From: Sphaerobacter thermophilus DSM 20745
GTDB lineage: Bacteria > Chloroflexota > Chloroflexia > Thermomicrobiales > Thermomicrobiaceae
NCBI RefSeq assembly: GCF_000024985.1
Contig: NC_013523.1
Span: 1,054,001-1,118,000 of the forward strand
Direction of reading: 5' to 3'
DNA: 64,000 nt
Shown in pieces: positions 12,436 through 14,326 of this stretch. The notes under the pieces were generated by a model. The model ran no database searches. It was not told the origin of the DNA and saw nothing but the letters and a program-made list of their open reading frames with translations. The position numbers and the translations under genes were made by a program. Each line of letters begins with the position of its first letter. Positions within the stretch are counted from its first letter, which is position 1.

Positions 12436-13734
12436 TTAGTGGTTCCCCTCGGGTGCCAGCGTCGGGCACTGGGGGACAGCGGGGGAGGCGCTCATAGCGC
12501 GCTCGAATGCGCGAACGACGGCGGGATCGAACTGCGTCCCGGCGCAGCGGCGCAGCTCGGCCATCGCGACGTGGTGGGGCAGCGCGCGGCGGTAGGTCCG
12601 ATCTGAGGTCATGGCATCGTAGGTGTCCGCGACGGCGATGACCCGCGAGCCGAAGGGGATCTCCTCCCCTGCCAGGCCGTCGGGGTAACCTGTGCCGTCC
12701 CAGCGCTCGTGGTGGTGCCGGACGATATGCGCGACGGTCCGGTACATGGTCAGGTTGCTCAGGATCGCGGCGCCTTCGGCGGCATGCTTCTCGATAGCCT
12801 GTCGCTCCTCCGGGGTCAGTTTGTCCGGCTTCATCAGTGTCGCGTCCGGTGTACTGACCTTGCCCAGGTCGTGGATCCGGGCGGCCGCGATGATGCGGTC
12901 GGCCTCTTCCAGGGGGACGTTATCCATGTGCTGCAGGATCGCTTCAACGTAGGCAGCGACCCGCTTGGAATGCTCGGACGTGTAGGGATCGCGCCGGTCG
13001 AGGGTGTCGGCCAGCATCTCGATCGTCTTCTGCGTCTCCTCATGGATCTGACGATAGCTGCGGAAGGCGAGGTACGGCCCGACGAGGGGCACGACCGCGA
13101 TGATGAGAGCCAGCGGGCTCTCGCGCTCGAGCACCGGGATCAGGCTGCCGAGGGTCGGCAGCGTGATCCACTCCAAGATGACACCGTAGGCGCTGGCGCG
13201 CCACATCTGCCAGGGTGAGGTGCCGACCGCGCGGGAGAGGACGACCGCCATCACCCCGGATTCAATCGTCGTGTAGACGGCGGCCGCACCGATCGTCACA
13301 GCCACATTGCTCCAATTGCCGATCGGTGAGCGGCTGGGGTCGGCCAGCCCGCTGTAGGCCCAGCCCGAGACGAAGGTGGCCAGCGTGTAGTTGCTCACAT
13401 TGGTCAGTAGCTTGATAGTCGGCCGCCGGTCCACCAGTTCCACGAAGAGCCCTGCCCCGCCCGCGATGAGCGCGCCGACGATGGGACCGAGGGACAGCGC
13501 GGCTGCGAAGCACAAGGCGGACGAAACCGAGACGGTGATGCGGACGGAGGAGAGTGGCAGTTCGATGTCGAAGAAATCGGCGAAGATGATGAGGCCGACG
13601 AGAATCGCGGCGACGAAGAGGGTTTGCCAGGTCAGCGGAGGGCGCTGCGCGAGCGGGCCCAGAGTGATCAGCACCGCTACGGTGACGGCGACGAGCCCGA
13701 TGACAACGTTGCGAACCCGATCAACTGGTTGCAC
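12436..13734 (-). CDS. Membrane HD-GYP domain phosphodiesterase
   Basis: About 432 residues: several membrane helices over the first 230 residues (an MASE-like sensor region with FADFFDIELP and IVGALIAGGAGLFVELVDRRPTIKL parts), then an HD-GYP domain with HSKRVAAY, HDLGKV, HHHERWDGTGYPDGLAGEEIP and DTYDAMTSDRTYR. HD-GYP enzymes hydrolyse cyclic di-GMP. GTG 13734 is chosen because a TGCTATAAT extended -10 lies upstream at 13836-13828, inside what a start at ATG 13884 would make coding sequence. No GGDEF partner is seen in the window. Confidence 0.85.
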   Translation of the reverse strand: MQPVDRVRNVVIGLVAVTVAVLITLGPLAQRPPLTWQTLFVAAILVGLIIFADFFDIELPLSSVRITVSVSSALCFAAALSLGPIVGALIAGGAGLFVELVDRRPTIKLLTNVSNYTLATFVSGWAYSGLADPSRSPIGNWSNVAVTIGAAAVYTTIESGVMAVVLSRAVGTSPWQMWRASAYGVILEWITLPTLGSLIPVLERESPLALIIAVVPLVGPYLAFRSYRQIHEETQKTIEMLADTLDRRDPYTSEHSKRVAAYVEAILQHMDNVPLEEADRIIAAARIHDLGKVSTPDATLMKPDKLTPEERQAIEKHAAEGAAILSNLTMYRTVAHIVRHHHERWDGTGYPDGLAGEEIPFGSRVIAVADTYDAMTSDRTYRRALPHHVAMAELRRCAGTQFDPAVVRAFERAMSASPAVPQCPTLAPEGNH

Positions 13735-13827: not shown

Positions 13828-13836
13828 ATTATAGCA
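13828..13836 (-). promoter_or_regulatory. Extended -10 promoter of the HD-GYP gene
   Basis: TGCTATAAT on the minus strand, a perfect extended -10 with no good -35. It would start transcription near 13821, giving a leader of about 85 bases before GTG 13734. Confidence 0.55.
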
Positions 13837-14062
13837 GCCGATTCTCGCCGTCTCGGGCACCAAGAGGGCCACAACTCGGCGCAAGAGTACCGACCCTGCG
13901 AGGTCTGAAAGTACCGTGTCCGTACTGGTCCGTTGCTACGTCCCGTCGGCAGCCACTCAGGATCAGACGCGCCTCCAGCAGGACTGCCGGTGGGGCTCCG
14001 TCGCGGCTTCCCGTGGCTGGGCCCCTTGGTCATCATCGGAGTCCCAGAGCCGAGAAACACGT

Positions 14063-14111
14063 GCGGGCAGCCAGTCTCGAACCGATCACCCGACCAAGCC
14101 TGGCTGCCCGC
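14063..14111 (-). terminator. Probable terminator of the mini-peptide transcript
   Basis: GCGGGCAGCCAG (14063-14074) and CTGGCTGCCCGC (14100-14111) are a perfect 12-bp inverted repeat with a 25-base loop. On the minus strand the stem is followed by ACGTGTTTCTC, a weak T-rich tail. It lies downstream of the three mini-genes and before the promoter of the HD-GYP gene. Confidence 0.45.
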
Positions 14112-14137
14112 GCGGCAGACCCCGCGAAGCGGCGTCC

Positions 14138-14167
14138 CTATTTCCAGCGAAAGTTCTTCCACTTCAT
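14138..14167 (-). CDS. Mini-gene 3: nine-residue peptide MKWKNFRWK
   Basis: Ten codons, ATG at 14167 to TAG at 14138, encoding MKWKNFRWK. It is the third of three tandem tiny frames on one predicted transcript. Compared with mini-gene 1 it differs at three sites besides none in protein: start codon ATG instead of GTG, TTT for TTC, and AAA for AAG in the last lysine. A GGAG lies 10 bases upstream. Similarity between copies begins at the start codon and ends at the stop codon, which argues for selection on the peptide. The peptide is strongly cationic with two tryptophans. Function unknown. Confidence 0.6.
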   Translation of the reverse strand: MKWKNFRWK

Positions 14168-14218
14168 GAAGGCGTTACTCCGGCTAGGAGTGACTCGCAC
14201 ATGCGGAGCCCTCGAGCG

Positions 14219-14242
14219 TTACTTCCAGCGGAAATTCTTCAT
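14219..14242 (-). CDS. Mini-gene 2: seven-residue peptide MKNFRWK
   Basis: Eight codons, ATG at 14242 to TAA at 14219, encoding MKNFRWK, i.e. the same peptide lacking one Trp-Lys pair. It has the best ribosome site of the three (AAGGAGA about 9 bases before ATG). Asn is AAT instead of AAC, a synonymous change, and the stop is TAA instead of TAG. It lies 54 bases after mini-gene 1 and 51 bases before mini-gene 3. An in-frame GTG seven codons earlier exists, but the ribosome site would then lie inside the gene. Confidence 0.6.
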   Translation of the reverse strand: MKNFRWK

Positions 14243-14296
14243 TGCCCTCGTCTCCTTCTTCACTGAGGTCGGCACGACAGACAGATCCACGGTCGA

Positions 14297-14326
14297 CTAC
14301 TTCCAGCGGAAGTTCTTCCACTTCAC
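14297..14326 (-). CDS. Mini-gene 1: nine-residue peptide MKWKNFRWK
   Basis: Ten codons, GTG at 14326 to TAG at 14297, encoding (M)KWKNFRWK. GAGGGAG sits 7 bases upstream of the GTG, an ideal ribosome site. It is the first of the three frames after the consensus promoter at 14477-14449. The frame is open a further 13 codons upstream, but the other two copies share nothing there. Whether the product is a free peptide, a modified natural product or only a translated regulatory leader cannot be told from sequence. Confidence 0.6.
   Translation of the reverse strand: MKWKNFRWK

Follow-up and report, generated by a model that had tools for sequence, protein, structure and literature searches.

On the minus strand of the 64-kb stretch of Sphaerobacter thermophilus DNA analysed here (the window), three open reading frames of seven to nine codons follow one another and encode almost the same peptide, which raises the question of whether they are genes and of what such short products might do. 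A sequence-only reading of the window had described them as three tandem genes, each with its own ribosome site, with similarity bounded by the start and stop codons and with only silent base differences in the shared codons. Their coordinates, stops and peptides were all reproduced in our analysis, and a Shine-Dalgarno-like site was found ahead of each (Table 1). The copies are 87% identical in the shared codons versus 23% in the 30 nt after the stops and 36% in the stretch from -50 to -21; similarity is indeed bounded as described, and the flanks, at chance-level identity, are unrelated. The base differences among the three window copies were likewise confirmed as silent, and the start and stop codons had been read correctly, except that the starts do not alternate as claimed (GTG, ATG and ATG). 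A degenerate DNA pattern for KNFRWK plus stop, allowing up to three mismatches, occurs at exactly three places in the 64 kb (shuffle mean, 0.01), its exact form has exactly three matches in the whole S. thermophilus genome, and a detector of tandem micro-ORF arrays returned this array as its sole find in the window.

Table 1 Features of the micro-ORF array and of the sensor gene that follows it (window positions; G001 and G002 are the two other Sphaerobacter genomes).
Feature	Position	Strand	Details
Micro-ORF promoter	14477-14449	-	TTGACA, 17 nt, TATACT; 11/12 sigma-70 match; shuffle mean 0.1
Shine-Dalgarno-like site, micro-ORF 1	14340-14334	-	GAGGGAG
Micro-ORF 1	14326-14297	-	GTG AAG TGG AAG AAC TTC CGC TGG AAG TAG, MKWKNFRWK; conserved in G001 and G002
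Shine-Dalgarno-like site, micro-ORF 2	14257-14252	-	AAGGAG
Micro-ORF 2	14242-14219	-	ATG AAG AAT TTC CGC TGG AAG TAA, MKNFRWK; same peptide in G001 and G002
Shine-Dalgarno-like site, micro-ORF 3	14182-14178	-	CGGAG
Micro-ORF 3	14167-14138	-	ATG AAG TGG AAG AAC TTT CGC TGG AAA TAG, MKWKNFRWK
Likely transcription terminator	14060-14114	-	18-nt arms, 89% complementary, then T-rich stretch; 3' of micro-ORF 3
Two GGTACT boxes, possible operator	13886-13915	-	5' of sensor gene; possibly common to array promoters of relatives
Likely -10 element (TATAAT) of a separate sensor-gene promoter	13828-13833	-	also present in G001 and G002
HD-GYP protein anchored in the membrane; proposed receptor and probable c-di-GMP phosphodiesterase	12436-13734	-	Pfam HD_5, E 4e-40
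MASE9-type/S-component-like N-terminal domain of this protein	about 13111-13638	-	
HD-GYP domain	about 12517-13017	-	

The array is also framed by a strong promoter and a likely terminator, both overlooked in the sequence-only reading. The promoter is retained in both other Sphaerobacter genomes; TTGACA is present in 24 of 31 homologous upstream regions of arrays or peptide genes (2.8 expected), and in 19 of 35 genomes a terminator-like hairpin follows the array or peptide gene (5.5 expected). This double enrichment suggests that the peptide array is probably a separate transcription unit and makes a simple cis-acting leader unlikely. The best explanation of the three micro-ORFs is a dedicated peptide gene cluster consisting of a promoter, three separately initiated genes of 7-9 codons and a terminator. 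Of 31 array promoter regions, 11 contain the hexamer AGTACT (1.4 expected); it also recurs in 9 of 31 array-sensor spacers (1.2 expected), and GGTACT is found in 10 of 31 such spacers (2.3 expected), mainly in families f1, f2 and f7. These (A/G)GTACT boxes are suggestive only, hinting at shared control of array and sensor through a candidate operator.

Beyond S. thermophilus, the exact consensus M-K-(W-K)-N-F-R-W-K, which had been put forward for a six-frame search of related genomes, was found among 101 relatives only in the two other Sphaerobacter genomes; it holds within the genus, and relatives of the array mostly lie outside it. In G001 the first two copies are retained and the third has decayed (MEWKNSRWKS, stop lost), and the G002 array reads MKWKNFRWK, MKNFRWK, MKNFRWK. 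In an alignment of the locus the -35 and -10 elements and the micro-ORFs are conserved and the spacers far more divergent, above all in G002. At the level of the order, the DNA upstream of orthologs of the membrane-anchored HD-GYP gene was scanned. These orthologs are present in most Thermomicrobiales genomes, and micro-ORFs with ribosome sites lie 5' of the gene in 25 of 25 genomes with enough upstream sequence (a 26th ortholog sits at a contig end, its array being on another contig). Each locus holds one to eight micro-ORFs with lineage-specific peptides mostly of 5-18 residues: MKWKGWKWQ, MKWKTHKWR x2, MKFWKWR x3, MKWKNWKWR, MKWKSWKIR, MKWKGVKWL x4, MKWKNWTWR, MISWK x5, MLGVKWS x5, MSSVKWG x4, MKWTDITWN and MTWD-(variable)-DSATWK x7. 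Shine-Dalgarno sites precede all the homologous micro-ORFs listed and not only the window copies. All 27 distinct micro-peptides tabulated contain Trp, which is the penultimate residue in 22.

Searching 61 genomes of the order for MKWK...W. plus stop gave matches only at the HD-GYP-linked locus or at contig ends. A scan of all GTDB for a Shine-Dalgarno site followed by this motif returned 26 stretches, with tandem copies in Thermomicrobiales only and the others single and scattered; the one looked at in detail, from an Ardenticatenaceae genome (L106), is contained in a gene read in a different frame and was dismissed as chance. Outside Thermomicrobiales, nine MKW(A/S)S(A/T)ALKWD-type copies occupy the same slot in G077. 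Arrays of the form MTWD-(7-9 variable residues)-D(S/G)(A/S)(T/V)WK were seen at L076 (G054), L026 (G037) and L031 (G044), with constant ends, a middle that differs between copies of one genome and additional MTWD-stop mini-copies. At four loci (L016, L018, L028 and L065) contig breaks or N-runs fall right at the array or 5' of the sensor, which is what one would expect should short reads assemble poorly across tandem micro-gene arrays.

Selection at the level of the peptide, proposed in the sequence-only reading, is supported by the comparison of copies and by the conservation of the slot. Among the intergenic copies of 12 arrays, defined by DNA similarity and not by peptide, about 22 variable codon columns are silent-only versus 11 that change the amino acid (totals counted by hand from the copies after two matches inside the upstream coding region were left out), the silent share expected from single substitutions at those columns being about 18%. 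The amino-acid changes all fall in a few degenerate copies, and in G049 a serine switches between TCC and AGC from copy to copy, leaving the peptide unchanged. Array spacers have diverged to chance while the peptides stay alike and their non-Trp residues remain constant between copies; such tandem copies therefore argue that the whole peptide is kept, not the Trp codons alone. The stops of the micro-ORFs are TAG or TAA in 65 of 68 cases, those of the long ORFs of the window often TGA, which is a hint only because three TGA stops occur and the copies are related.

The neighbouring membrane HD-GYP sensor, like the longer relatives with signal-like stretches described below, had gone unnoticed in the sequence-only reading. 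Its catalytic motifs HDLGK and HHHERWDGTGYPDG are conserved, and c-di-GMP hydrolysis is therefore expected. When the window protein was modelled with AlphaFold2 (pLDDT 76) and the model compared with known structures by Foldseek and VIA, the C-terminal domain matched HD-GYP structures (9rbz, Z 20.7; 4r8z, Z 20.5) and the N-terminal domain ECF S-components (4hzu, Z 14.9 over 162 residues with rmsd 3.5; FolT, Z 14.3; TmRibU, Z 13.4). Helical bundles can score middling Z values; here several S-components stand together at the top, and the N-terminal domain models as an ECF S-component fold, of the type that binds small ligands. MASE9 (PF20972) is matched by the ortholog in G050 (31.1 bits, cut-off 24.3) and just missed by those in G033 and G101; the window protein has no MASE9 Pfam match, and its N-terminal domain aligns with these three. 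In family f11 the gene after the peptide encodes a histidine kinase (HisKA and HATPase) whose N-terminal domain is homologous to that of the HD-GYP protein (hhalign 99.4%, E 1.3e-21), and the swap of output from HD-GYP to histidine kinase occurs in f11 and other families. Since the output domain varies while peptide and sensor domain remain paired, the sensor domain is likely the partner. In a tree of 34 sensors, those with short peptides fall on one side of a weakly supported branch (75/33), with none of 500 label shuffles as low as observed, a pattern compatible with a single origin of the short peptide form.

In sister lineages the same slot holds signal-like precursors of 27-38 residues that end in ...LAAGA-GGKWG, ...ASGA-AKWW or ...ASGA-PHKIL. 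They share a basic start, a hydrophobic stretch, an A-x-G-A site that is signal-peptidase-like in sequence and a tail of 3-8 residues (GGKWG, AKWW, DSRWA and PNRWGP among them). Nine tandem copies of MQKLITRVRPTLFWIAGLLSLVIASGAPHKIL-type peptides (...IASGAPHKIL) are present in G028, the peptide MKRLKGQIIYAALWLTGIMALVLASGAPNRWGP in G030, and MDIKWLKY...ASGAAKWW or ...AKWL in G067, G073 and G076; a neighbouring DUF5317 gene, used as a lead, pointed to MKWHAVNLYIKISLLMGAIASLLLAAGAGGKWG and relatives in family f11. A profile of 22 long peptides (29 positions), run in six frames over 400 Chloroflexota genomes, gave 49 matches in 41 of them. Nearly all of the 48 matches inspected are ORFs of 27-38 residues with a ribosome site. 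A same-strand MASE9-type sensor (about 30) or DUF5317 gene (6) lies just downstream of 36 of the 48, mostly at a gap of 30-270 nt, and 12 adjoin no recognised sensor; the profile was built partly from the same loci, and of the 32 matches that played no part in building it, about 22 are linked. The sequence-only reading knew no family with such a sequence, and likewise no Pfam or NCBIfam family matches the long peptides tested. Literature searches on MASE9, HD-GYP with peptide pheromones, Chloroflexi peptide signalling and tandem micropeptides yielded nothing relevant, and no paper was found on DUF5317 or on TM0504, which we take to be a Thermotoga peptide signal. The KW/ASGA tiny-peptide family of Chloroflexota is apparently undescribed in Pfam, NCBIfam or the papers found, and the Sphaerobacter micro-ORFs would be the shortest form of this phylum-wide family encoded beside membrane sensors.

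KW/ASGA tiny peptides repeatedly occur ahead of or close to DUF5317 (PF17248) membrane genes, also where HD-GYP is absent (L123, L124, L126, L130, L178, L192, L234, L237, L240 and L241), and DUF5317 may be a second receptor class for KW peptides. Family f31 (L184, L185, L187, L233, L235 and L236) has MTWG/MTWK...ASGAN...W peptides of 37-40 aa, with a GAF-like protein downstream in at least three cases and not a MASE9 sensor. A further sub-family, ending in EAGRRW(L/S/G) or MGAGTRWFH, is found at L213, L215, L238 and L239, where no recognised sensor lies downstream.

The linkage to the HD-GYP sensor, together with the long relatives with signal-like stretches, suggests that the KW peptide most likely serves the adjacent membrane sensor as a ligand or regulator. 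In Sphaerobacter its target would be the S-component-like (MASE9-type) domain of the HD-GYP phosphodiesterase, through which it would modulate the breakdown of cyclic-di-GMP; in family f11 of the Chloroflexia the same pairing would feed a histidine kinase. Most relatives would make a precursor with a signal-peptidase-like A-x-G-A site followed by the 3-8-residue peptide, and in Thermomicrobiales, where the hydrophobic part is absent, the short peptide would be translated directly, in several copies. That the peptides are ligands of the neighbouring sensor, made leaderless from tandem micro-genes in Thermomicrobiales, has in our judgement about an even chance of being right. We infer translation, an export route, binding of peptide to sensor and an effect on c-di-GMP; no exporter was identified for the leaderless micro-ORF peptide, and adjacency itself points to a functional link, not to binding. 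S-component folds usually bind vitamins or metals, and the peptide may therefore not be the ligand. The link from the short peptides (7-9 residues) to the long ones (33 residues) is suggested by position, the MKW...KW ends and the tandem habit. We infer that the micro-ORFs are leaderless descendants of long precursors, because the hydrophobic middle is missing and the MKW and KW ends are kept; at nine residues homology cannot be scored. Tentatively, and somewhat short of an even prospect, the system might represent a new class of cell-cell or self-signalling in Chloroflexota, in which precursor-free peptides of 5-18 residues from tandem autonomous micro-genes meet S-component-like receptors that drive c-di-GMP hydrolysis or a histidine kinase.

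Ranking second to a ligand or regulator is a small membrane-protein regulator of the MgrB or SafA kind: the long forms would be single-span proteins contacting the membrane domain of the sensor, with no secretion or cell-cell signalling, and the micro-ORF peptides reduced versions that bind from the inner side at the same surface or pocket. The one hydrophobic span and basic N-terminus of the long forms, the constant pairing of peptide and membrane domain, and matches of the sensor model also to CbiM/NikM-type folds, which work with small membrane partners, speak for such a regulator, but the Thermomicrobiales forms lack any hydrophobic span and the conserved A-x-G-A ahead of a 3-8-residue tail resembles a signal peptidase site; we consider it unlikely, with a chance large enough to be kept in sight. 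The sequence-only reading had also listed translated regulatory leaders; as such a leader, the Trp-rich micro-ORFs would let the passing ribosome sense Trp or translation and so control the sensor gene in cis. Trp in every tabulated micro-peptide and the position of the array directly upstream of the sensor gene favour it. However, terminators separate array and sensor in the 19 of 35 genomes, the TATAAT 5' of the sensor gene is kept in all three Sphaerobacter genomes, the constancy of the non-Trp residues shows the whole peptide to be conserved, the slot can also hold long forms whose tail has a single Trp or no Trp, and attenuation has no need of up to nine autonomous copies, all of which leaves a Trp-sensing leader improbable.

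An antimicrobial role, as an unmodified or modified peptide (Arg/Trp type or ultrashort RiPP), had been raised from composition, and MKWKNWKWR-like members are indeed cationic and Trp-rich; ultrashort RiPP genes, the biarylitides, also exist. Yet at the homologous slot net charge runs from +4 to -2 (MTWDLWATDTHDSATWK, -2; MKWTDITWN, 0; MSSVKWG, +1), so that cationic composition is not kept, which argues against an antimicrobial family, and what stays constant beside the peptides is a sensor. Five adjacent proteins were checked and match HD-GYP, RmlB-like, TrmD, SpoIIE and AAA kinase-like families; no P450 or other tailoring enzyme is among them, in agreement with the sequence-only reading, and we hold an antimicrobial function to be very unlikely. 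Even less credible is an RNA-level element (protein-binding repeats or structured RNA) in which the ORFs are incidental, an outcome named beforehand as one that would speak against selection on the peptide. A CUUCC-GCU-GGAAG hairpin is possible in each Sphaerobacter copy, but it shows no compensatory change, its pairs are broken in two copies, the fold of the whole RNA has a z-score of -1.34, serine codons switch between TCC and AGC, and other lineages have no such hairpin; Rfam gave no match at the micro-ORF locus. A type I toxin, the toxin-like alternative offered earlier, is not supported, as the Thermomicrobiales micro-ORF peptides of families f1, f3 and f5 have no hydrophobic, membrane-spanning segment.

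Among known systems, AgrD-AgrC and ComC-ComD are Firmicutes pairs of peptide signal and polytopic sensor, and the KW family resembles them in placing a small peptide gene next to a sensor that has several membrane spans and no large extracellular domain, in its lineage-specific peptide and in the histidine kinase among its outputs; linkage of the Agr/Com kind was found at 25 of 25 Thermomicrobiales loci with sufficient upstream DNA and at 36 of 48 long-form matches. Unlike these pairs, it has no AgrB or ABC processing partner that we could see, its sensor domain is S-component-like with HD-GYP among the outputs, and the Thermomicrobiales peptide is precursor-free and encoded in tandem micro-genes. 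Phr and PapR are exported oligopeptides with cytoplasmic receptors of the Rap/PlcR type; the long KW forms likewise are short precursors that have a signal-like sequence and end in a penta- to octapeptide, but membrane sensors and DUF5317, and no Rap/PlcR-type receptor, lie beside them. MgrB and SafA are similarly tiny single-span proteins tied to membrane sensors, from which the family differs in its span-free micro-ORF forms, its conserved tail after A-x-G-A and its tandem copies. With the MASE9 HD-GYP proteins and ECF S-components the likeness lies in the MASE9-type N-terminus of the downstream protein, which models like S-components; in contrast to the latter, no ECF energising module is joined, and the fusion partner of the domain is HD-GYP or a histidine kinase. 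Biarylitides derive from a five-residue precursor encoded by an 18-bp gene (PMC13417212), and genes of 5-9 codons missed by annotation are common to both systems (PMC13417212, PMC12951456); the KW arrays differ in having no adjacent P450, other residues, multiple identical copies and a sensor partner.

The tandem micro-genes are invisible to annotation pipelines, and nonetheless keep a fixed place through an order, with a longer form phylum-wide. To our knowledge, no gene organisation has been reported in which a tandem array of separately initiated genes, each of 5-18 codons, encodes one peptide, and peptide signalling in Chloroflexota is hardly described (no paper was found). If the peptide controls the neighbouring sensor, the pair would form a direct peptide-to-c-di-GMP circuit, suggest what class of ligand MASE9-type proteins, and possibly DUF5317 proteins, are likely to have, and provide a natural series that runs from Sec-type precursors to direct synthesis without a leader, testable in cultured Sphaerobacter and Thermomicrobium.

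Other kinds of gene were also seen ahead of the sensor. A MASE9-like or HD-GYP-like sensor is preceded in families f13 and f14, as well as in G041 (L063, L073, L074 and L160), by an exported protein of about 150-170 residues and not by a tiny peptide, and at L071 (G081, family f8) a 64-residue exported Cys/Trp peptide (...AGWQWCKTCVVQGESG...) lies 5' of the HD-GYP ortholog.
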